DNA of 54,824 nucleotides from a virus, in IMG/VR virus record IMGVR_UViG_3300031602_000003, positions 1 to 54,824 of that record. One strand, 5' to 3'. The notes beneath the pieces are model-generated. The model was not told where the DNA came from, ran no database searches, and worked only from the letters and a program-made list of their open reading frames with translations. This document shows positions 2,067 through 24,351 of this stretch, piece after piece. Position 1 is the first letter of the stretch. Every line of letters begins with the position of its first letter. A program made the position numbers and the translations under genes.

Positions 2067-2428
2067 GTTATTTTCCTTAGTTGTAGAACACTCCAGATGA
2101 AGGCTTCAAGCTGAGCTACTTCAGCTTTGCTCATCTTCCTAGGAGTGCACTCTTGGTTACCATTATTATTAGGAATCATATATGTATCTCCGTCATGCTC
2201 GAATAGGGCTTCGAACATAGCATCTATAGACATATGCATGGCCTTGAGTAAATCAGGGCTAGTGGTTGGTGCTATACGATGATCTACTGCTATTAGATAC
2301 ATGAAGATTGTTTCCAGATTACTCTGGGAACACCACTTGTATCTGAGCATTATTAAGCTCCACATTAGATTAGGGAACCACCAAAGGCGTTGAAGCCAAT
2401 TGGCGTCTATCATTTTATTGATTACCAT
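2063..2428 (-). CDS. Early protein of unknown function, 121 aa
   Basis: The start is set at the ATG at 2428 because a consensus AGGAGGT lies 5 nt upstream; an open frame extends further but without a ribosome site. The N-terminal third is rich in tryptophan (DANWLQRLWWFPNLMWSL); the C-terminal part is acidic to helical. It overlaps the genes on both sides by a few bases. No family recognised. Confidence 0.75.
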   Translation of the reverse strand: MVINKMIDANWLQRLWWFPNLMWSLIMLRYKWCSQSNLETIFMYLIAVDHRIAPTTSPDLLKAMHMSIDAMFEALFEHDGDTYMIPNNNGNQECTPRKMSKAEVAQLEAFIWSVLQLRKIT

Positions 2429-2544
2429 AAGTAACCTCCTGTTGTTAGTAAATGTACTCCAATGAATACATTTGTTAATGTTGCAATTACGACAGCGAGT
2501 ATGTAGCACCGAGTGGCTACATACTCTATTTGTTTATCAGTCAT
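2422..2544 (-). CDS. 40-aa single-span membrane micro-protein
   Basis: Begins MTDKQIEYVATRCYILAVVI, with a hydrophobic helix at residues 13-34, and ends GGYLW. AGGGGA lies 6 nt before the ATG. It sits between a zinc-ribbon gene and the 121-aa gene and overlaps the latter start by 7 nt. Function unknown. Confidence 0.65.
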   Translation of the reverse strand: MTDKQIEYVATRCYILAVVIATLTNVFIGVHLLTTGGYLW

Positions 2545-2547
2545 GAG

Positions 2548-2793
2548 TTATCCCCTAAATGACATGGGAGCAGGATCGAATACTAATGTATCCTCAACCA
2601 TTTCCCTATGTTCCTCATGCCTTAGTAAGGTTTTAAGCTCGTTGACACTACACTTATTGTCTGGGCAAGCCCAGCCATTTCGACTAGTGGATTGAATGAC
2701 CCCAGACACAAACTCTGAGATACATTCACAATAACCGCAGAGCTCACACATAGATGTATGCTCCCTGCAGTGGCTACATTTAATTTGAGCCAT
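2548..2793 (-). CDS. Zinc-ribbon-type small early protein, 81 aa
   Basis: Begins MAQIKCSHCREHTSMCELCG, with CxxC pairs at residues 6/9 and 16/19 and further cysteines (CEC at about 22-24, then WACPDNKC), enough for one or two zinc sites. GAGGAG precedes the ATG. It is the third of three consecutive small CxxC proteins. Such proteins in phage early regions often bind host factors or nucleic acid, but here that is inference. Confidence 0.75.
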   Translation of the reverse strand: MAQIKCSHCREHTSMCELCGYCECISEFVSGVIQSTSRNGWACPDNKCSVNELKTLLRHEEHREMVEDTLVFDPAPMSFRG

Positions 2794-2941
2794 TATAGTT
2801 CTCCTCTTTGAGGTTACATAATACTACGTCAGCATCACATTCAGTATCATTTGATACTTCTGCATACTCACAATGAAGTGGTTGAGTATACCCGTCACCG
2901 AGTAATGAACCACCACAACTTTCACATATATATTCAATCAT
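2780..2941 (-). CDS. Zinc-ribbon-like micro-protein, 53 aa
   Basis: Begins MIEYICESCGGSLLGDGYTQ; CxxC at residues 6/9 and cysteines at 24, 35 and 42 could bind zinc. The ATG overlaps the end of the upstream gene and the stop overlaps the next start by 14 nt. GGGAG lies upstream. Confidence 0.7.
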   Translation of the reverse strand: MIEYICESCGGSLLGDGYTQPLHCEYAEVSNDTECDADVVLCNLKEENYNGSN

Positions 2942-3086
2942 GATGGATTCTCCCATTAACGAACTCTTCTTGTTCTTTATAATAAAGTTCCATATCAGCT
3001 TGACGCTCGGTATGGCATTCTAAGCAAACAACCTCTTCTTCAATAAGAAGCTCATTGTTGCAATCATCACATTTACGTATTGTCAT
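2934..3086 (-). CDS. Zinc-ribbon micro-protein, 50 aa
   Basis: Begins MTIRKCDDCNNELLIEEEVV; two CxxC knuckles (residues 6/9 and 21/24, followed by His25) form a textbook four-cysteine zinc ribbon. The ATG at 3086 has AGGAG 7 nt upstream. It is the first gene of a run of seven small overlapping genes ending at 1857. Preceded by a TTAT-loop hairpin (3119-3136). Confidence 0.75.
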   Translation of the reverse strand: MTIRKCDDCNNELLIEEEVVCLECHTERQADMELYYKEQEEFVNGRIHHD

Positions 3087-3118
3087 ATTAATTCTCCTAT
3101 TATGACAGTTGTACTGTA

Positions 3119-3136
3119 GGCGACATTATTGCCGCC
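3119..3136 (-). promoter_or_regulatory. TTAT-loop hairpin upstream of the micro-protein operon
   Basis: GGCGACA-TTAT-TGCCGCC: a 7-bp stem with one A-C mismatch, 33 nt before the ATG at 3086. Two other hairpins with the same loop sit 27 and 31 nt before the starts of the next genes upstream (4189-4210, 3719-3742). No T-run follows, so it is not a classical terminator. Confidence 0.45.
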
Positions 3137-3148
3137 CACTAGTTATAC

Positions 3149-3688
3149 TTATCTTATGTTTGGACGATACACATTAGGCATAATCCAACCAGCACTGCCT
3201 GCACATTCTCTTTGTGAACGTGGAGATTTTGTAGCTTTATACTGATAAGGAGTAGCAAGCTCCTCGTGCTCGATTTCAGTAAGCTCCTCAGAAGAGATAA
3301 CGACACCTTCCCAAAGGTCTTCGCTAGATATAGTATCACGAAGTGATACCTCTTCCTGATGCTCCTCACAGGCGTGCATATCATTGAGCAACGCAATACG
3401 TTGCGGACAATCATGCGCCCACACTACATTGCGTGATGCCATAGACACGATAGTGCCTTTGGCTGTCACGAAGTACTTCTGGTTATCATAGCTACCAATA
3501 AAGCATTTACGTAATGCAGTTTGTTGAAGATGACCAGTACTAACAAGTTTATTCTTGTTAGAACCTTTCAAAGTAGGATTGATAAGACAAGTCTTCTCTT
3601 TGCTTACATCTACAGCTAAGTAAAGAGCTGATGGTGAATTCTTAGTACCAAAGCGAACCCAGTCGCCACTAACGATAGTATTTGTCAT
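3149..3688 (-). CDS. Early protein of unknown function, 179 aa
   Basis: No family recognised. The N-terminal half looks like a beta-rich fold (GDWVRFGTKNSPSALYLAVD); residues about 110-150 are strongly acidic (EEHQEEVSLRD, SSEELTEIEHEE); the C-terminus is basic. The ATG at 3688 has AGGAGAT 6 nt upstream. A GGA-triloop hairpin and a TTAT-loop hairpin lie just upstream. Confidence 0.75.
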   Translation of the reverse strand: MTNTIVSGDWVRFGTKNSPSALYLAVDVSKEKTCLINPTLKGSNKNKLVSTGHLQQTALRKCFIGSYDNQKYFVTAKGTIVSMASRNVVWAHDCPQRIALLNDMHACEEHQEEVSLRDTISSEDLWEGVVISSEELTEIEHEELATPYQYKATKSPRSQRECAGSAGWIMPNVYRPNIR

Positions 3689-3718
3689 AATTTATCTCCT
3701 ATATATGACATTGATGTT

Positions 3719-3742
3719 GAGTATCATTATTGATATTCAACA
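3719..3742 (-). promoter_or_regulatory. TTAT-loop hairpin upstream of the 179-aa gene
   Basis: TTGAGTATCA-TTAT-TGATATTCAA forms a 10-bp stem with one G-T pair, 31 nt before the ATG at 3688. If the GGA hairpin at 3746-3760 is a virion-polymerase promoter, its predicted start (about 3742) would place this hairpin at the extreme 5' end of the mRNA. Confidence 0.45.
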
Positions 3743-3745
3743 GAC

Positions 3746-3760
3746 GGCACAGGATGTGCC
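3746..3760 (-). promoter_or_regulatory. GGA-triloop DNA hairpin, candidate virion-RNAP promoter
   Basis: GGCACA-GGA-TGTGCC on the plus (template) strand: a 6-bp stem with the same GGA loop as the N4 P2 promoter hairpin. The closing pair here is A-T rather than C-G. It lies between the stop at 3767 and the start at 3688. Confidence 0.45.
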
Positions 3761-3766
3761 TTGGTA

Positions 3767-4162
3767 TTAATTACTTAACATAACCTCTAGGTCAGTCTGA
3801 ACAGACGTACCTAGGTCTGTAAACATAATACCATGTTTATAGACGAAGTGTTCCGCTGTAGGTTGTTCAGCATTGTCTTGGACAAATGCATCGAACATCC
3901 AGCGAAGAGCCGTAGAGTAGTCACCAGCGCCCGATTGGGTCACTTGTGATATGAGACTCATGAAACGAGCATCAAGCACTTTCAGTGCCTCTTCCTCTTG
4001 CGCTCTGAGTACTTCTCCTTCTGCTTGAAGGATAAGCATATCATCAAGAAACTGTTCTTCAGTTTCTGGCACACAATGCCTTGGTTTAAAGCCATGTATA
4101 TCTTTATATACATTTATGAAACACTCTTGCGAAGCAACGGATATTGGTGTTTGATTAGTCAT
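3767..4162 (-). CDS. Early protein of unknown function, 131 aa
   Basis: No family recognised. It is acidic, with a predicted long helix rich in E, A and Q (about residues 48-75). The ATG at 4162 has AGGAGA 7 nt upstream. Four hairpins lie between this start and the terminator at 4346-4388, so regulation at the DNA or RNA level is likely. Confidence 0.75.
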   Translation of the reverse strand: MTNQTPISVASQECFINVYKDIHGFKPRHCVPETEEQFLDDMLILQAEGEVLRAQEEEALKVLDARFMSLISQVTQSGAGDYSTALRWMFDAFVQDNAEQPTAEHFVYKHGIMFTDLGTSVQTDLEVMLSN

Positions 4163-4188
4163 GATATTCTCCTATGAATGACTATTAC

Positions 4189-4210
4189 TTTCTTGGATTA
4201 TTCCAAGAAA
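4189..4210 (-). promoter_or_regulatory. TTAT-loop hairpin upstream of the 131-aa gene
   Basis: TTTCTTGGA-TTAT-TCCAAGAAA: a perfect 9-bp stem, 27 nt before the ATG at 4162. Same loop and similar spacing as 3719-3742 and 3119-3136. A second hairpin, GTAAAGC-TAAA-GCTTTAC, lies at 4222-4239. Confidence 0.45.
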
Positions 4211-4274
4211 AGAAATGAAGAGTAAAGCTAAAGCTTTACACTTACCTCTACCCCCAACTCGTTGGGCCCTTAGT

Positions 4275-4328
4275 ATAAGATAGAGCGTGTGTAGTGGGTG
4301 CTTACCCACTATATACGTGCTCTCTTAT
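4275..4328. repeat. Long imperfect inverted repeat (25-nt arms, 4-nt loop)
   Basis: The arms 4275-4299 and 4304-4328 match at 20 of 25 positions with two more G-T pairs; the inner 8 bp (TAGTGGGT/ACCCACTA) are perfect. It sits in the untranslated gap between the terminator at 4346 and the gene starting at 4162, next to a CCCAAC-TC-GTTGGG hairpin (4253-4266). Confidence 0.6.
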
Positions 4329-4345
4329 AATGTGTGTGAGTGTGT

Positions 4346-4388
4346 AAAAAAAAAGGTACACTATATGCATCTTAGCATATAGGGTACC
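4346..4388 (-). terminator. Rho-independent terminator after the first early gene
   Basis: Read leftward, a 14-bp stem with one mismatch (GGTAC and CTATATGC arms, 6-nt loop) is followed by nine T. It begins 10 nt after the stop at 4398. Downstream early genes therefore need read-through or their own promoters. Confidence 0.92.
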
Positions 4389-4397
4389 TTTAGGGTT

Positions 4398-4661
4398 CTA
4401 TTCCTCTTTGGGAATAGGTTCCTTTGGAGCTTCAATTGCATCCACTTGATGCATATTGTTTAGCTCCGCCAGAGAGACCTGGCTCCACTTGGAGACATGT
4501 TGATCTGTCGTATCAACGACATTGTAGACGAGATCGCACATCTTCTGTGCGATGTTGGCTACAGACTTGTCGTTGGTAATGAGGATACCGCAGACGGCCT
4601 CTATGCCTTCTGTGGTAGCCGAGGAGATCGAGCTGATTGGAGCGAAGAGCTTATTAGTCAT
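4398..4661 (-). CDS. First early gene, unknown function, 87 aa
   Basis: The start is set at the ATG at 4661 (MTNKLFAPISSISSATTEGI) because AAGGA lies 7 nt upstream; an upstream in-frame extension lacks a ribosome site. The protein is helical and ends acidic and proline-containing (APKEPIPKEE). It is the first gene leftward of the 900-bp regulatory region. No family recognised. Confidence 0.7.
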   Translation of the reverse strand: MTNKLFAPISSISSATTEGIEAVCGILITNDKSVANIAQKMCDLVYNVVDTTDQHVSKWSQVSLAELNNMHQVDAIEAPKEPIPKEE

Positions 4662-9189: not shown

Positions 9190-10863
9190 ATGACAGCCTA
9201 TACATACAGCGGAAGTTTTCCTGGCAGTCCCCAAACTAACGATACATTAGTGATTAACAGTGTATCTTACACCTACTCGTCTAAAGGTGCTTGGGTTGTG
9301 ACGGGGGGTGGCCTTGAAGGTACAGCAGTATTATCTACTGGAGAATCTGGCGGCTCTAAATTATTAAGGGAAGACGGTGATGGCACTTCTTCATGGCAGA
9401 CAATAACAACAATCACTGGTGGACAGGCTTCTGCTATCACAGCCAATACAGCTAAGACAGGTATTACATCAGGACAGGCTTCTGCTATTGTGGCAAATAC
9501 TGCTAAGGATACCAATGTAGTTCAGACTACAGTATCAGGTAACGCAGGCACAGCTACTACTTTAGCAACCGCAAGAACGATTGCAGGAGTTTCATTTAAT
9601 GGCTCTGCTAGTATCTCTTTGAACAACAACGCCATTACAAACGGTGCAGGGTATACGACTAATGTAGGTGATATCACAGGTGTGACAGCAGGTAGTGGGA
9701 TGTCAGGTGGGGGTACTAGCGGTACAGTTACACTGACTAACTCATCTCCTAATGTTGTTCAGACTACGGTGTCTGGAAACGCAGGTACAGTAACTAATGG
9801 GGTTTACACTACAGGTACTCAAACTATAGGTGGTGTTAAGACTTTCTCTAGTAATGCCGTTTTCGGTGGTTCTGTCACAACGACAGCAGGAGGTACTTCA
9901 GGTGCAGCAGCAGTGGCTAACTTTGATGATGTTAGGATTGACAGTGACGCTCATTGTGGCCTTCAATTCTCAGGTGGTTCATCGGGTGAAATGCAAATAA
10001 GTTTTGGTGATGCTGGTGACCCCAATGCAGGGCGTATAAACTACCAAAACTCTAGTAATGAGATGCACTTTTTCACGAACGGTAGCCTCGCTTTTGACAT
10101 AGACAGCTCACAAGATGCCACCTTTGCAGGTACAATATCAGGGAACGGTTCAGGCATCACTACCCTCAACGGTTCTAATATATCTTCTGGTACAGTAGCT
10201 GCTGCGAGAGTAGCTACACTGAACCAAAACACTACAGGTTCTTCTGGCTCTTGTACGGGTAACGCTGCTACAGTTACTAATGGAGTATATACTACTGGAA
10301 CTCAGACTATTGGTGGTACAAAAACATTCTCTAGTAATGTCACTGTTAGCGGCACACTTAGTGTTCGCACAGCTATTGACCTAGCGGATAATGATATTTT
10401 GAGGTTTGGTTCTGGCGATGATGTAGAGTTTTTCTGTAACGGTTCACATATGTATACTGACTTGAATAGTGGTATTGGCAATTGGTACATCCGTGATGGA
10501 AGTAGTACACGATTTACGTTTAATGATAACGGATCATTTACAGCCACATCAAATATCACAGCGTATTCTGACCGAAAACTAAAAGCTAATCTTGAAGTTA
10601 TACCAAATGCGTTAGATAAAATATCGGCACTTACAGGTTACACGTATGACCGAATTGATATGGAGGGTGTAAGACAAAGTGGTCTTATTGCCCAAGACGT
10701 ACAGAAAGTGTTGCCCGAAGTTGTTGTCAATAATGTAGACCCTGAGACGAAAGAAGAAACATTATCTGTTGCCTATGGTAACATGGTCGGATTACTTATT
10801 GAGGCTGTAAAAGAACTTAACACTAAAGTGGATGACTTACAGAAACAACTAGAGGACAAGTAA
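9190..10863 (+). CDS. Tail fibre with C-terminal S74 intramolecular chaperone, 557 aa
   Basis: The shaft (residues about 60-400) carries repeats such as VVQTTVSGNAGT and GVYTTGTQTIGG, each present at least twice. The C-terminal 100 residues form an S74-type intramolecular chaperone domain: AYSDRKLKANLEVIPNALDK, then QSGLIAQDVQKVLPEVV and YGNMVGLLIEAVKEL. In that family Ser-Asp (here SDRK, about residues 457-460) is the autocleavage site that frees the folded fibre from its chaperone. Likely a trimeric receptor-binding fibre. Confidence 0.85.
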   Translation: MTAYTYSGSFPGSPQTNDTLVINSVSYTYSSKGAWVVTGGGLEGTAVLSTGESGGSKLLREDGDGTSSWQTITTITGGQASAITANTAKTGITSGQASAIVANTAKDTNVVQTTVSGNAGTATTLATARTIAGVSFNGSASISLNNNAITNGAGYTTNVGDITGVTAGSGMSGGGTSGTVTLTNSSPNVVQTTVSGNAGTVTNGVYTTGTQTIGGVKTFSSNAVFGGSVTTTAGGTSGAAAVANFDDVRIDSDAHCGLQFSGGSSGEMQISFGDAGDPNAGRINYQNSSNEMHFFTNGSLAFDIDSSQDATFAGTISGNGSGITTLNGSNISSGTVAAARVATLNQNTTGSSGSCTGNAATVTNGVYTTGTQTIGGTKTFSSNVTVSGTLSVRTAIDLADNDILRFGSGDDVEFFCNGSHMYTDLNSGIGNWYIRDGSSTRFTFNDNGSFTATSNITAYSDRKLKANLEVIPNALDKISALTGYTYDRIDMEGVRQSGLIAQDVQKVLPEVVVNNVDPETKEETLSVAYGNMVGLLIEAVKELNTKVDDLQKQLEDK

Positions 10864-11868
10864 ATGACACTACAGTCTTCAGGAGCAATTACCCTTGCAC
10901 AAATCCAAGCAGAGTTTGGAGGATCTAATCCTGCAAGCTTAAGTGAATACTATCGGGGTGGGTCGTATGTGCCGAACACAACTACAAACTCTAGTATTCC
11001 TACGTCTGGTACGATTACTATGTCAAACTTTTATTCAGGATCAAATGCAGCACCTGCATGGTCAATGGGTAACTTCTCAAGCCAAAGTAATAAAACACGT
11101 AATAGCTACTACTACTCTAACACATTAACAGCTTCATCTACTGGTACTGTTTCAGTATCTGCAGGAGGCACATCATCATATAAAAAATTCAAAGTAAATG
11201 GTGGAGGCTTAGTAACCTCAGCAAGTATAGCTAATGGTAATACCTTGCGTATGAGAATACGGGCCAGTGGTTCTTACTCTTCTACAGTAACAGGTACAAT
11301 AGCTGGTAATGGCAACACCTCTTCGTTCTCCGTAACCACAGGTGGTGCCCCTTCTCCTCCACCGCCTTCTCCACCGCCACCGACTAGTTCTTGTTTAGCA
11401 GCAAGTATGCCAATATTTATTCAAGGTGCGTCTGTAGAAGAAACAATTGGTGATCTGGTTGCAGGGGATCAAGTGACCTCCTTTAACTCACCAACCATAA
11501 TTGATGAAACTAATCCTAATTGGGAATCTTGGTCAGAAGACGATATCTCAGATGGATCTAATGTAGTAACAAGTGTTATTAGAGCAGATGCGTTTCTTGT
11601 TGGGCGGTATATTAGAATCAATGGACAGGTAGACTGTACAGAGCCGCATCCACTTCTAGTTCAAAGATCTAATCTTTGGCAGTGGATTAGGGCTAGTGCG
11701 TTAGTTGTGGGAGATAATTTGTATGGTATTGACGCTTCAGCAATTCCTATAACTTCTCTTGAAACAATTGACGGTCAATTACAGGTAGTTGATGTCGGTG
11801 CAGAAACCGTAGATACTTATTTTGCAGGTAAAATTGACGGTGTGTATATTCTTAACCACAATAAATAA
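10864..11868 (+). CDS. Fibre-like protein with SPPPP linker and C-terminal Hint (intein-like) domain, 334 aa
   Basis: The N-terminal part (MTLQSSGAITLAQIQAEFGG, then SLSEYYRGGSYVP) resembles marine-phage structural proteins and is followed by a beta-rich segment. Residues 163-173 are an extensin-like linker PSPPPPSPPPP. From Cys177 the sequence is a Hint domain: CLAASMPIF with IGDLVAGDQVTSF (block A), CTEPHPLLV and WIRASALVVGDNLYG (block B region), and VDTYFAGKIDGVYILNHNK ending His332-Asn333-Lys334. Known Hint domains shift the peptide bond before Cys1, so the domain may cleave itself off or attach the N-terminal part to another molecule. No C-extein remains beyond one Lys. Next downstream are a hydroxylase and a sulfotransferase. 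Confidence 0.8.
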   Translation: MTLQSSGAITLAQIQAEFGGSNPASLSEYYRGGSYVPNTTTNSSIPTSGTITMSNFYSGSNAAPAWSMGNFSSQSNKTRNSYYYSNTLTASSTGTVSVSAGGTSSYKKFKVNGGGLVTSASIANGNTLRMRIRASGSYSSTVTGTIAGNGNTSSFSVTTGGAPSPPPPSPPPPTSSCLAASMPIFIQGASVEETIGDLVAGDQVTSFNSPTIIDETNPNWESWSEDDISDGSNVVTSVIRADAFLVGRYIRINGQVDCTEPHPLLVQRSNLWQWIRASALVVGDNLYGIDASAIPITSLETIDGQLQVVDVGAETVDTYFAGKIDGVYILNHNK

Positions 11869-11881
11869 TAGTGGAATTTAA

Positions 11882-13231
11882 ATGCAAGTTAGAAATAATG
11901 TTACAGAAGAGTGGCATGGTTGGATTAAGGATAACGAGGGCTTAGATAAAACAGAGATGTTTAAAAGGCTTCTCGCTGAAGACTTTAATTTCATGTCAAT
12001 CAGTAAGGCGTTAAGCTTTGTTCCTACAGTCAATATGGAATGGTTTACTAACCCTGTTGTTGCTACTGGGGAATCAGAACCAATTGTTATTGCAGGAGGC
12101 ACTAAGATTGAGAATGATAAGATTGAGATGTGGGTTCTTGATGGGTTCTTAAATGAACAAGAGTGCAAGTCATTAATTAAAACCACTAAAAACAACATGA
12201 ATCCTTCTGGGGTAGACACACCAAATCCCTCTCCTGATATTAGAACAAGCAGAACGAGCTTTTCCGTTGGAGCATCATCTGAATTAGGTAAGAAGTTAGA
12301 ATGGCGTATATGCCAACTAACTGGATTAGATCCTAGACATGCTGAGACCTTGCAAGGTTGCCATTATGAGATAGGAGAAGAGTATAAAGAACATCCTGAT
12401 TTCTTCGATCCCTCCACTTCAAATAAAATAGGCAAACTAGGGCAGCGTAGTTACACAGTAATGATATATCTGAACGATGTAGAAGAGGGAGGAGAGACTG
12501 TTTTCCCTAAGTGTGGCATTTCATTAACACCTAAACAAGGAACGGTTGTTGTTTGGAACAACTTAAACTCTGACGGCAGTCTTAATCACAACTCTGTACA
12601 TATGGCAAAACCAGTGCTTAAGGGGGCTAAGACTATTATTACAAAGTGGTTTAGAACTAGCAAAGGGCTGCCTGTTTTCAGTGATATTACGGAACATGCA
12701 CCTAGATACACCGAAAAAGGTTTTGAGATAACTGCGCTATTTGACACACAATTTAAACGCATTACAGAGATTTACGAAGCCCATAAAAAAGATGAGCAGC
12801 CAGAGTCAGTCCCAAGATACCTTACTTCAGTTAACAACAACATACCTTCTACGGTCATGCCCTTCACAGAAGAAGAAGGTATGGAAATATCTGATATGGT
12901 TCAATCCCGATTAGAGGAGTGGGCCGGAGTAGAACTAGAACCAACTACCCAATATGGCTTCAGGGACTATAAGAGGGGAGCAGTGCTAAGTATTCATAGG
13001 GATAGGGAAAATACACACATTGTCTCCGCTATTATTAATATAGCACAAATTGTTGATGAAGAGTGGTATCTTAATGTTGAGGACTATTATAACCATAAAC
13101 ACGAAATAGCACTACAACCACAGTGTATGGTTTTTTATGAGGGACGTAATTTATTGCATGGCAGAGCCCAGCCATTTGAAGGTGATAGCTATGTTAATTT
13201 ATTTATACACTTTAAAGAAAAGGTGACATAA
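11882..13231 (+). CDS. Two-domain 2OG-Fe(II) oxygenase (prolyl-4-hydroxylase type), 449 aa
   Basis: Domain 1 (about residues 85-265) follows the prolyl 4-hydroxylase pattern: His171-Pro-Asp173 as the first iron ligands, YLNDVEEGGETVFP, distal His240 (SVHMAKPVLKGAK) and Lys250 for 2-oxoglutarate. Domain 2 (about 310-449) repeats the fold with His372-Arg-Asp374, distal His426 (NLLHGRAQPF) and a terminal strand SYVNLFIHF. The enzyme class hydroxylates proline or other side chains using O2 and 2-oxoglutarate. Two apparently intact active sites in one phage protein is unusual. The adjacent SPPPP linker is an obvious candidate substrate, by inference only. Confidence 0.85.
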   Translation: MQVRNNVTEEWHGWIKDNEGLDKTEMFKRLLAEDFNFMSISKALSFVPTVNMEWFTNPVVATGESEPIVIAGGTKIENDKIEMWVLDGFLNEQECKSLIKTTKNNMNPSGVDTPNPSPDIRTSRTSFSVGASSELGKKLEWRICQLTGLDPRHAETLQGCHYEIGEEYKEHPDFFDPSTSNKIGKLGQRSYTVMIYLNDVEEGGETVFPKCGISLTPKQGTVVVWNNLNSDGSLNHNSVHMAKPVLKGAKTIITKWFRTSKGLPVFSDITEHAPRYTEKGFEITALFDTQFKRITEIYEAHKKDEQPESVPRYLTSVNNNIPSTVMPFTEEEGMEISDMVQSRLEEWAGVELEPTTQYGFRDYKRGAVLSIHRDRENTHIVSAIINIAQIVDEEWYLNVEDYYNHKHEIALQPQCMVFYEGRNLLHGRAQPFEGDSYVNLFIHFKEKVT

Positions 13232-13235
13232 TATT

Positions 13236-13841
13236 ATGCTTTACTGTACGGGTGCTCCTAAATCAGGAACACATTTGCTTTTAAAGGCACTACGTTTGTT
13301 TGGAGACGATTGTCTTCAGGCAATCCATAGTCACAAAGACCATAACTTTCCGTGGGATGCTGTTGATAGGCGTGTACATATTATACGAAACCCTCGGAAT
13401 GTTCTTATAAGTTGGGCTAGATATCAGCATCTGCCCCGAAACGATGAGACAATTATTGGTAGTATGGATTATACCATTCAGCGTATGCGAGGACATTTCG
13501 GATGGATAGCAGAAGAACATTGTTTAACTGTCCGATTCGAAGAATTATTAACAGACCCTGGTGTGATTAAAAAAATAGGTGAGTACTTGGATAAACCTCT
13601 TATTAAGGGCCATTTTGAAGCACTTTGGGGAGGCACGTCCACGTTTACAAATGACCTAACTGACTGGAGGGACTTCTGGACTGTTGATGTGAAAAAAGCA
13701 TGGGTTGCAAAAGGTGGGGTTGAGATTGAAAATAAGATGTGCTATTTTAATGGGGATGAAAAAGTTTTAGAGAAAAGTAATGGTTATCAGTATACTGGTG
13801 CGCATCATTATCTTTCTAACTTACAAATAAAGGATAAGTGA
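13236..13841 (+). CDS. Sulfotransferase-like protein, 201 aa
   Basis: Residues 6-17 (GAPKSGTHLLLKAL) match the 5'-phosphosulfate loop of PAPS-dependent sulfotransferases, and residues 50-59 (IRNPRNVLISW) match the 3'-phosphate loop with Arg51 and Ser59. A C-terminal DWRDFWT resembles the region that closes over PAPS in this family. Shorter than many family members (about 250-300 aa). It starts 4 nt after the oxygenase stop, so the two are probably made together. Likely role: transfer of sulfate to a hydroxyl on a phage or host surface molecule; substrate unknown. Confidence 0.8.
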   Translation: MLYCTGAPKSGTHLLLKALRLFGDDCLQAIHSHKDHNFPWDAVDRRVHIIRNPRNVLISWARYQHLPRNDETIIGSMDYTIQRMRGHFGWIAEEHCLTVRFEELLTDPGVIKKIGEYLDKPLIKGHFEALWGGTSTFTNDLTDWRDFWTVDVKKAWVAKGGVEIENKMCYFNGDEKVLEKSNGYQYTGAHHYLSNLQIKDK

Positions 13842-21147: not shown

Positions 21148-21392
21148 TGGATATTGTAAAACTAGTTTCTGAATTTGGCTTCCCGGTTGTCATGGCGGGT
21201 GGGTTGGGTTACTTCGTATACTTTGTATGGCAGACTATTACTAATGTGATAGACCCTGCAGTACAGGATATGAAAGTCACTATCATTAGACTTACAGATC
21301 AACTTAGGTTATTAGATCAAGATATGATACGCTTACAAGAGAAGCTTAATACTGCTTTGCAAATACAGGAGCAACACAAAGATGATATATAA
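21147..21392 (+). CDS. Small membrane protein B (paralogue of the previous gene), 81 aa
   Basis: Begins MDIVKLVSEFGFPVVMAGGL; one span at about residues 10-32, then a coiled-coil-like helix (LTDQLRLLDQDMIRLQEKLN). The ATG coincides with the end of the previous stop and the stop overlaps the CsgF-like start, so it belongs to the same operon. Confidence 0.6.
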   Translation: MDIVKLVSEFGFPVVMAGGLGYFVYFVWQTITNVIDPAVQDMKVTIIRLTDQLRLLDQDMIRLQEKLNTALQIQEQHKDDI

Positions 21393-21852
21393 TATGATAA
21401 GAGACATTCTTCTGACCATTGTCATACTTGGTGGGATAGCTTATGGTGTAGACGAAGCCTTCGCAGACAAAATGACGCACAAGTTTAAGTCCCCTTCCTT
21501 TAGTGGTGTGAACACTTCTAGCCACTATTTGACTATTGAGAACCAAGAGCACACTAGAGTTATGACAATTAAAGAAGAAGTGCAAGCACTGGTAGATGAA
21601 ATAGCGAGGGACAAAGACAATACAACATTGGCTCGTTTCGTCCGTAATCTAGAAAGCCGTGTTTATGCACAGCTGTCAAGACAAATGGTAGATAACCTTT
21701 TTGGGGAAAGCCCAAGTACATCAGGCACCATAGAGCTTGAAGGTAACACCATCTCTTACAGCAGTGATGGTGAATTTATAACATTAACGGTGGTTGACTC
21801 AGATGGAACTACGACTGACATTTCTCTGCCTATCGGCTCTTTTACTTTCTAG
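21382..21852 (+). CDS. csgF: CsgF-like curli assembly protein, 156 aa
   Basis: In curli systems CsgF plugs the outer face of the CsgG pore and helps nucleate amyloid. Here a signal-like segment ends near AFA-DK (about residues 27-30), and the mature start MTHKFKSPSFSGVNTSSHYL follows the conserved CsgF N-terminal insert (MTFQFRNPNFGG in E. coli) that threads into CsgG. A helix (LESRVYAQLSRQMVDNLF) and two strand blocks (TIELEGNTISYSSDG, FITLTVVDSDGTTTDI) match the rest of the family. Length is slightly above E. coli CsgF (138 aa). The 3' end overlaps the CsgG start. Confidence 0.88.
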   Translation: MIYNMIRDILLTIVILGGIAYGVDEAFADKMTHKFKSPSFSGVNTSSHYLTIENQEHTRVMTIKEEVQALVDEIARDKDNTTLARFVRNLESRVYAQLSRQMVDNLFGESPSTSGTIELEGNTISYSSDGEFITLTVVDSDGTTTDISLPIGSFTF

Positions 21853-22621: not shown

Positions 22622-23327
22622 TGTTATATTCTTATTAACATTGGCTAGTGCCGCATATGCTCAAGATAATGAAATATATGTGGATCAATCTGGTGCAACT
22701 GCAAATATAGATTTTGAACAACTTGGTACAGGGAACCTTATTACAGGGCTTTCTGGAATATCAGGAACACCCACAGCGTTAGACCTTGACGGATCATCTA
22801 TGACGTTAGATATTAATATGATTGGCTCTACCAATAAGTTTCTCGGTGATATGTGGGCAGATACTTTTACTGGATTGTACAGCTTCACAGGCAGCACAAA
22901 TACATTTACAGTACAGATTGACCCAACTAACACCTATGGTGCTGACAGCAGCAACCAAAACGTGCAGGTTATAGGCAGTAGTAATACATTTGTCTTGAAT
23001 CAAGCAACCTCTGCCTTGGCAGACAGCTTAGACCTTGACTGGTTAGTGCAGGGATCAAATAATACAGTTACAGCAAACATTGATATTGATAACGCCACAA
23101 ACTTCCTAGACATAGATGGCTCCGACAATACTGTTACCTATGATGGTGACGGTGTTACCGCAAGTGCAGGTGGATACTTCTATTTAGACCACACTGGTGG
23201 CAGCAGGACTTTCAATGTCCAACAACAGAGTACATTAAATAATGACTGGGTTAAGATTAATTCTACTGGCTCTAATGGTACTGTCTGTGTCATTCAGAAC
23301 GACCAAGGCACAGCAGTCGGTTGTTAA
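22602..23327 (+). CDS. Secreted curlin-like repeat protein, 241 aa
   Basis: A classical signal peptide (MIKKLISVIFLLTLASAAYA, cut after AYA) is followed by VDQSGATANIDFEQLGTGN, reminiscent of curlin repeats. Six GS-x-N type turns recur every 25-35 residues: IGSTNKF, TGSTNTF, IGSSNTF, QGSNNTV, DGSDNTV and TGSNGTV. Two cysteines near the end (CVIQNDQGTAVGC) may form a disulfide. It is a plausible substrate of the neighbouring CsgG/CsgF pore. Whether it forms amyloid is unknown. AAGGAG lies 12 nt before the ATG. Confidence 0.75.
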   Translation: MIKKLISVIFLLTLASAAYAQDNEIYVDQSGATANIDFEQLGTGNLITGLSGISGTPTALDLDGSSMTLDINMIGSTNKFLGDMWADTFTGLYSFTGSTNTFTVQIDPTNTYGADSSNQNVQVIGSSNTFVLNQATSALADSLDLDWLVQGSNNTVTANIDIDNATNFLDIDGSDNTVTYDGDGVTASAGGYFYLDHTGGSRTFNVQQQSTLNNDWVKINSTGSNGTVCVIQNDQGTAVGC

Positions 23328-24351
23328 TATTGGTGGGGTATCTGAGTTAAACGGTACGGCGCGTATATTAAGAGGTAGGCCTTACGATGCTGAGTTGGAC
23401 TTTGCCATACAAAGTAATGATGAGGCTGTCACTACCAATGGTAGGATGGCTATTACATTTCTAGATGATAGTACTGTTCAGTTAACAGAGCACTCTCAAC
23501 TGTATATAGACGAATACATATATGATCCTGATCCAACTAAATCTAAGATGGCTCTTACGTTTGGGTTAGGTACTGCTAGGTTTATAACAGGTAAGCTTAA
23601 TAGAATATCAAAGCAGAACATTAAACTAAGAACACCTACAGCTAATATTGCTATACGAGGAACAGACTTCACTGCGACAGTAGATGAACTAGGGAGAAGC
23701 CTTATTATTCTTTTACCTGATGAGTTTGGTCTCTCAAGTGGGGAGATTGAAGTTGTAACTGCAATGGGCAGTGTCCTCTTAAGCAAACCTTTTGAAGCTA
23801 CTACAGTATCTGTATTTGAATCAGCCCCTAGTAAGCCTGTTATTCTAGATCTTACCTTAGATGGAATAGATAATATGTTAATCGTTTCTCCTCCTAAAGA
23901 AGCCGTAGAGCTAATAGAAGAGCGAAGTGCGCAGGCTGCTAATATCCTTGATTTTAATGGTTTGGATATGGATGTCCTAGCAGAAGACTTTTTAGGTGAG
24001 GATGAATTGGAGTTCACAGAGTTAGACATTGACTATCTTGATGGTAACTTCCTGGAAGACTTGCTTAACGTGCTCGATGCCCTTGCAGTTACTAAGCAGG
24101 AGGATGGGTTAGCCAGCTCAGGTGCTGTTAAAATTACAGGCACTGCTTTTGGGCAAGATAAAGATACACAAGTTACTTCATTCATAAATGGTGAAACACT
24201 AAGTATACAACGGAGTGTCAGTAACTTTGCGCAAATAGATGTTGACAAAACAGGAGGCTATACTGTTATATTCACCCAAGACGGTGTAACCAGAGCTATC
24301 ACCATTAATGGTGGTGGCACTAGCACAATAACAATGAGTCAGGGGGGCTAA
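23242..24351 (+). CDS. Secreted FecR-domain protein, 369 aa
   Basis: A signal peptide (MTGLRLILLALMVLSVSFRT, cut near TKA-QQ) is encoded within the last 86 nt of the curlin-like gene. Residues about 30-160 form a FecR-type domain: LNGTARILRGRPYDAELDFA, MAITFLDDSTVQLTEHSQL, and TPTANIAIRGTDFTATVDE. The remainder is acidic (EDFLGEDELEFTELDIDYLD) followed by a glycine-rich beta end. FecR domains occur in periplasmic sensors, and secreted FecR proteins often sit next to CHASE2 cyclase genes in bacteria, as here. Confidence 0.82.
   Translation: MTGLRLILLALMVLSVSFRTTKAQQSVVNIGGVSELNGTARILRGRPYDAELDFAIQSNDEAVTTNGRMAITFLDDSTVQLTEHSQLYIDEYIYDPDPTKSKMALTFGLGTARFITGKLNRISKQNIKLRTPTANIAIRGTDFTATVDELGRSLIILLPDEFGLSSGEIEVVTAMGSVLLSKPFEATTVSVFESAPSKPVILDLTLDGIDNMLIVSPPKEAVELIEERSAQAANILDFNGLDMDVLAEDFLGEDELEFTELDIDYLDGNFLEDLLNVLDALAVTKQEDGLASSGAVKITGTAFGQDKDTQVTSFINGETLSIQRSVSNFAQIDVDKTGGYTVIFTQDGVTRAITINGGGTSTITMSQGG

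Follow-up and report, generated by a model that had tools for sequence, protein, structure and literature searches.

A proline-rich fibre linker and an adjoining prolyl 4-hydroxylase-type gene as a candidate substrate-enzyme pair in a marine N4-like phage

Why does a phage carry genes for a prolyl hydroxylase-type oxygenase and a sulfotransferase directly behind a fibre gene, and on which molecules do the two enzymes act? The question is raised by IMG/VR virus record IMGVR_UViG_3300031602_000003, a 54.8-kb virus record analysed over its full length of 54,824 nucleotides (the window), in which a cassette of three genes sits behind two tail-fibre genes. The initial annotation had read these genes as one modification pathway, with the prolines of a fibre linker first hydroxylated and the hydroxyls (or other groups) then sulfated, or alternatively with the enzymes acting on a host surface polymer. 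The three adjacent open reading frames were confirmed, all on the + strand and separated by gaps of 13 and 4 nucleotides. The arrangement is no assembly artefact, because a sister contig from a different metagenome agrees with the window, differing at 2 of 12,162 bases. Hydroxylation of the linker by the first oxygenase domain is likely, as judged from sequence and models, and the sulfotransferase appears to be a separate matter. The features of the cassette are as follows.

10864..11868, + strand: Hint fibre of 334 amino acids, with a short fibre N-terminus (residues 1-60), a domain at 61-160, the proline linker and a C-terminal Hint domain ending in HNK
11341..11391, + strand: linker GGAPSPPPPSPPPPTSS, read in the sequence; poly-glycine at the same place in the related contigs L262 and L263 (alignment)
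11392..11868, + strand: Hint domain, assigned to the bacterial-intein-like (BIL) kind, with Cys177, Thr259/His262, His332-Asn333 and terminal Lys334
11882..13231, + strand: two-domain 2-oxoglutarate (2OG)/Fe(II) oxygenase of 449 amino acids
12107..12664, + strand: oxygenase domain 1, prolyl 4-hydroxylase type, with H171, D173, H240 and K250, and with R121, S123, E155, Y168, R189 and W256 at the substrate site
12806..13228, + strand: oxygenase domain 2, matching phrog_2954 ("ferrochelatase" in PHROGs; 1e-15, residues 309-445), with an HRD...H-G-R pattern, probably a second 2OG oxygenase
13236..13841, + strand: sulfotransferase of 201 amino acids, dependent on 3'-phosphoadenosine-5'-phosphosulfate (PAPS), with a PKSGT 5'-phosphosulfate loop, an IIRNPRN...S 3'-phosphate site and an invariant His31

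The linker contains SPPPPSPPPP and directly precedes Cys177 of the Hint domain. Among the called genes of the window it is the only segment with at least six prolines per 20 residues, and the only one with a run of four prolines. The description of the first gene product as a fibre-like protein with an extensin-type linker and a C-terminal Hint domain was borne out, the linker being read in the sequence and the Hint domain recognized by profile and fold. The linker has two SPPPP blocks, whereas extensins carry many repeats; it resembles one extensin motif, and the fibre would hardly count as a member of the extensin-type hydroxyproline-rich proteins. The short fibre N-terminus recurs across many phage tail proteins; the N-terminal 173 residues of the fibre model were of low confidence.

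A natural comparison is provided by the contigs L262 and L263, found by searching with the Hint family; of the two, L262 is the nearer relative. In both an S74-type fibre gene is followed by the Hint fibre, then by the sulfotransferase and then by the gene that also comes next in the window, and their other structural genes indicate that they represent different podophages. Neither the cassette nor the remainder of either contig contains the oxygenase gene, and poly-glycine forms the linker in both (TTGGGGGGGGGTTSC; APSGGGGGGGGKKC). When the window is compared with L262, identity amounts to 79 of 100 residues in the domain preceding the linker and to 116 of 156 (74%) in the Hint domain, but to 3 of 11 in the linker itself. 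In the more distant Hint fibres, too, the linkers are rich in glycine or mixed, and their loci lack a prolyl hydroxylase, so that the glycine linker is probably the older state. The proline linker and the hydroxylase thus appear as a pair, gained or lost together, which is strong circumstantial evidence, though short of proof, for a functional connection.

The oxygenase itself is of the appropriate type. It matches PF13640 (1.6e-14), and the best sequence matches in the structure database are the prolyl 4-hydroxylase (P4H) of Bacillus anthracis (3e-30) and Chlamydomonas P4H-1 (4e-22). The domain 1 model, with predicted local distance difference test values (pLDDT) mostly above 80, has 3gze, an algal P4H with bound (Ser-Pro)5, as its top Foldseek match, and the leading matches are all peptidyl prolyl hydroxylases. 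In Cr-P4H-1 the proline is positioned by Glu127, Arg161, Tyr140 and Trp243, and iron is bound by His143/Asp145/His227 (PMC5684110). The former residues map to E155, R189, Y168 and W256 of the phage oxygenase, and the iron ligands to H171, D173 and H240. With a double-stranded beta-helix, an HxD...H iron site and K250 as the 2-oxoglutarate lysine, domain 1 appears to be a true peptidyl prolyl 4-hydroxylase.

The name "double prolyl hydroxylase" given initially is supported for domain 1 only; domain 2 has an HxD...H pattern but does not match any prolyl hydroxylase of known structure. Domain 2 was modelled with a pLDDT of about 30-60, and the fold comparison covers domain 1. In the alignment the HxD...H-x-R pattern is common to other phrog_2954 members, and domain 2 is probably another oxygenase of the 2OG type. 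Because this pattern is shared with 2OG oxygenases and the domain is here fused to a prolyl hydroxylase, doubt falls on the name "ferrochelatase", as applied to L154 (Pelagibacter phage HTVC023P gp67), L152 and the window, and on the reading in terms of iron metabolism that goes with it. The fused two-domain architecture is found also in L172; in the 449-residue window protein an N-terminal helical domain precedes domain 1. One of the two differences between the window and the sister contig, at position 13166, changes oxygenase residue 429 in domain 2, beside the distal His, from Ala to Thr.

The proposal that the linker prolines are hydroxylated therefore gains support from the peptidyl-proline type of the enzyme, from the fold match to a (Ser-Pro)5-binding hydroxylase, and from the syntenic relatives, in which poly-glycine replaces the proline linker in just those loci that lack the enzyme. 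A wider survey points weakly in the same direction. Scans of viral contigs for SPPPPSPPPP returned mostly antisense matches to glycine-rich genes or matches out of frame, leaving about four structural proteins as credible cases. Two of these (in the window and L060) have a 2OG oxygenase of the prolyl-hydroxylase family close by, versus 1 of about 178 other loci; the association has p = 0.001 with the window and p = 0.03 without it, in a post hoc comparison of small numbers. In the L060 locus (2214-4590) the fibre is of fibronectin type and has an SPPPP tail that contains Cys; an acetyltransferase-like gene comes next, and then the oxygenase, 0.8 kb downstream of the fibre.

Several observations weigh against hydroxylation of the linker. 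The co-variation amounts to a single evolutionary event among three homologues, and the L262 and L263 contigs are fragments of 11 and 14 kb, so that a hydroxylase elsewhere in those genomes is possible. L132 and L239 carry SPPPP with no hydroxylase in the available sequence, which in L132 stops at that gene. Among 80 surveyed phage prolyl-hydroxylase loci, most have no SPPPP protein within about 7 kb, and there is no general link with proline-rich fibres; since most of these loci lack a proline-rich fibre nearby, the family must have other substrates. Finally, bacterial relatives of the enzyme modify elongation factor Tu (EF-Tu), according to the titles of 5v7y and 4iw3.

The last point suggests that the oxygenase could target a host protein, such as EF-Tu, for host takeover, the proline linker being a stiff spacer of independent origin. 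The 5v7y and 4iw3 descriptions indicate that bacterial prolyl hydroxylases of the same fold both bind and modify this factor, and many phage relatives lie in non-structural regions, as in L149 and L150, where they stand beside asparagine synthase and replication genes, or in L005, where the oxygenase is found among cellular-type metabolic genes. In the window, however, the oxygenase gene is part of a tail-fibre module, with a syntenic gene on either side, and directly follows the gene of the sole proline-rich protein, and the glycine-linker relatives lack it, which makes a host target unlikely here. Linker hydroxylation by domain 1 remains the likely reading.

As a separate observation, L174, L175, L176, L177, L182 and L228 encode a PAPAP/PEP/PPPP-repeat protein on the opposite strand, about 4-5 kb from a prolyl hydroxylase; these proteins are possible other hydroxylase substrates.

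The window fibre protein alone had no Pfam or NCBIfam match for Hint, and its close relatives matched PT-HINT below the cut-off. For the family searches of contigs a five-member alignment proved too diverse, and a three-member alignment was used. Against known structures, the family profile matched BIL 2lwy (7e-10) and also inteins, and in Foldseek the predicted fold (pLDDT about 70-93) matched BIL domains, inteins and hedgehog autoprocessing domains (6y75, 2lwy, 1at0). An N-terminal Cys, a block B TxxH and a block G His-Asn are all present, and the protein terminates in NHNK. Cys177, Thr259, His262, His332 and Asn333 are invariant in the alignment of the three close homologues, and their equivalents are present in most distant members. 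The +1 residue is Lys334 in all three close homologues and variable in the more distant ones. The absence of a nucleophilic +1 residue separates BIL domains, which mainly cleave instead of splicing, from canonical inteins (PMC7664689); because Lys, not a nucleophile, follows Asn, the predicted Hint domain is of the BIL kind. Canonical protein splicing was rejected, as the +1 nucleophile is absent and the protein ends in HNK without a C-extein.

In Tetrahymena BUBL1, BIL2 joins the upstream domain to lysine side chains by isopeptide conjugation (PMC8616854). Since this best structural relative conjugates lysines, release of the fibre and its conjugation are both possible. Judged from the residues and the modelled fold, there is good reason to expect a working, self-processing domain. 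Such a domain would be expected to cleave the fibre, or pass it on, immediately behind the linker, a point absent from the initial annotation. That it is an inactive relic, merely part of the fibre tip, would be in keeping with the Lys at +1 in place of Cys, Ser or Thr; yet the five catalytic residues are kept in three close homologues, two of which diverge by 26% and 53% over the domain, and a relic is improbable.

BIL/Hint domains also end several virion proteins, some with collagen repeats, in the jumbo phages L026, L027, L028 and L265, the last of which has three consecutive Hint genes with small collagen fibres. Salmonella phage Sen-NF and Erwinia phage Y3 (L149, L150) encode collagen-Hint fibres and also a prolyl hydroxylase, which stands beside asparagine synthase, far from the fibres.

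The third gene behaves differently. Its product was correctly recognized as a PAPS-dependent sulfotransferase from the PKSGT loop and the R...S 3'-phosphate site, although the PF00685 match (2.8e-5) is just over the curated cut-off; the PKSGT, IIRNPRN and DLTxWxDxW motifs are conserved among its relatives. Such relatives are few in viral contigs, a sulfotransferase search of the phage collection found nothing, and one of the genome_contigs set gave pattern matches of which none was confirmed. The enzymes of L262 and L263 are 64 and 59% identical to that of the window, although both contigs lack the prolines and the hydroxylase. In L278 and L279, myovirus contigs with tail-sheath or neck genes, a 72%-identical sulfotransferase follows other tail fibres, and neither contig has a Hint domain or a hydroxylase.

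Since L262 and L263 retain the sulfotransferase while having neither the prolines nor the hydroxylase, hydroxyproline cannot be an acceptor that the enzyme requires. The same independent conservation speaks against sulfation of the linker hydroxyls and against the three genes forming one modification pathway, and hydroxyproline sulfation was rejected as the principal interpretation. For hydroxylation followed by sulfation by the adjoining enzyme there is the adjacency of the two genes in the window; set against its occurrence without the prolines or the hydroxylase in L262, L263, L278 and L279, this leaves the full pathway very improbable. We know of no precedent for sulfated hydroxyproline.

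More probably, the sulfotransferase acts on a host surface polymer or on another site of the fibre. Its distribution is that of a mobile gene linked to the tips of fibres. The 72%-identical genes occur in a schitovirus and in myovirus contigs that carry a tail sheath, and in every case the last fibre gene immediately precedes them, as would be expected of a host-range gene travelling with tail fibres between phages of the same host and modifying a surface polysaccharide (receptor masking, superinfection exclusion) or a metabolite. Outside viral contigs, the nearest relative in the databases (27-34% identical) lies on a Pseudosulfitobacter plasmid in a cluster of 3-deoxy-D-manno-octulosonic acid (KDO) and glycosyltransferase genes, which mildly favours surface polysaccharide; this relative is, however, distant. 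The position in a fibre operon would also agree with sulfation of the fibre itself, for example on tyrosines or serines. Modification of a host surface polysaccharide or metabolite has somewhat less than an even chance.

The cassette is best read as a modular fibre unit: the fibre brings along, at its C-terminus, a Hint processing domain of BIL type, and a sulfotransferase gene comes next. In the lineage of the window, a glycine linker of 10-14 residues would have become the extensin-like SPPPPSPPPP rod, and the gene for the prolyl 4-hydroxylase-type enzyme stands between the fibre and sulfotransferase genes. Enzyme type, adjacency and co-variation suggest that oxygenase domain 1 would 4-hydroxylate the linker prolines, stiffening a polyproline-II stalk, while domain 2 might conceivably modify the same or a neighbouring residue. 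The intact Hint residues and the BIL precedent suggest that a thioester could form at Ser176-Cys177, followed by release of the fibre or by transfer of its C-terminal end to a nucleophile, for instance the amine of a lysine. The sulfotransferase would act independently of hydroxylation, with a host surface polymer or a different site in the fibre as its acceptor. The most far-reaching form of this scheme, in which the proline linker and the hydroxylase were acquired as a pair and a hydroxyproline-stiffened fibre is covalently handed via the Hint thioester to an amine of another virion or host molecule, is speculative and improbable as a whole.

The window encodes a 3853-residue giant virion RNA polymerase (phrog_2206), an N4-type portal (phrog_1216) and an N4-type major head protein (phrog_1357), which identify the marine phage as N4-like (a schitovirus); it also encodes a terminase. 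The cassette is flanked by the following genes.

9190..10863, + strand: tail fibre with a C-terminal S74 endosialidase-type chaperone domain, upstream of the cassette (Peptidase_S74 8.6e-15; PHROG tail fibre families); an S74-like fibre occupies the equivalent place in L262 and L263
13843..14391, + strand: conserved next gene (MEGPRVTQNGDTRITE...), with synteny retained in L262 and L263

Elsewhere in the window are a gene for CsgF (curli/type VIII secretion; 21382-21852, PF10614 1.4e-15) and one for a FecR-domain protein (23242-24351, PF04773 4e-10). Type VIII secretion genes have been reported for pelagiphages (PMC9599517); here CsgF and FecR-domain genes occur in a schitovirus.

In some marine viromes, genes for prolyl 4-hydroxylases rank with the most abundant auxiliary genes, and their use by viruses "remains cryptic" (PMC9301287). 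A 2012 study (PMC3368898) assumed hydroxyproline to be absent from phage virion proteins, as bacteria and viruses were thought to lack the enzyme. The natural comparison described here points to one substrate of about 10 residues in the phage's own fibre, a concrete and testable proposal for a phage prolyl hydroxylase; if it is true, a bacteriophage virion protein contains hydroxyproline. A viral prolyl hydroxylase with peptide substrates has already been reported for chlorella virus PBCV-1 (Eriksson et al., 1999, as cited in PMC9301287); the novelty here lies in a bacteriophage that encodes, along with the enzyme, a candidate substrate which co-varies with it and sits at the predicted cleavage site of a BIL domain. 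Intein-like processing domains that terminate phage fibres are a further point of interest, and the comparison sets the sulfotransferase apart as an independent, mobile, fibre-linked gene.

Among known systems, Chlamydomonas P4H-1 (3gze, 2jig) resembles domain 1 in fold, iron ligands and proline-positioning residues, and its substrates are Ser-Pro-rich cell-wall proteins whose repeats resemble the phage SPPPP. It works in the secretory pathway, whereas the window enzyme comes from a phage, carries in addition a second oxygenase-like domain and a helical domain at its N-terminus, and adjoins one candidate substrate. The PBCV-1 P4H (5c5t) is also virus-encoded, shares the fold and was proposed to act on the virus's own proline-rich proteins; the substrates in the 1999 study were reportedly proline-rich repeats of PBCV-1 proteins. 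It belongs, however, to a eukaryotic giant virus and shows lower similarity (26% in the fold alignment), and no Hint fibre or adjacent substrate gene was considered. The closest solved sequence relative (3e-30), the Bacillus anthracis prolyl hydroxylase (3itq, 5v7y), is a cellular, single-domain enzyme that modifies EF-Tu according to the 5v7y title. BIL domains, including BUBL1 BIL2 (2lwy, 6y75), gave the best matches by profile and by fold and share with the fibre the Hint fold, the catalytic Cys/His/Asn and the lack of Cys, Ser or Thr at +1, but the phage domain lies at the extreme C-terminus, with one residue behind it and almost no C-extein to join. In the collagen-like fibres of jumbo phages (Phage NCTB, Erwinia phages, Salmonella phage Sen-NF) a homologous Hint domain ends virion fibres; these differ in having collagen repeats, glycine-rich or Ser/Thr linkers and a variable +1 residue, and the prolyl hydroxylase, where present (Sen-NF, Y3), is distant in the genome. 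In pelagiphages of the HTVC023P type (PMC9599517) a 2OG oxygenase stands beside the phrog_2954 "ferrochelatase" near tail genes; the two are separate genes there and one fused protein here.

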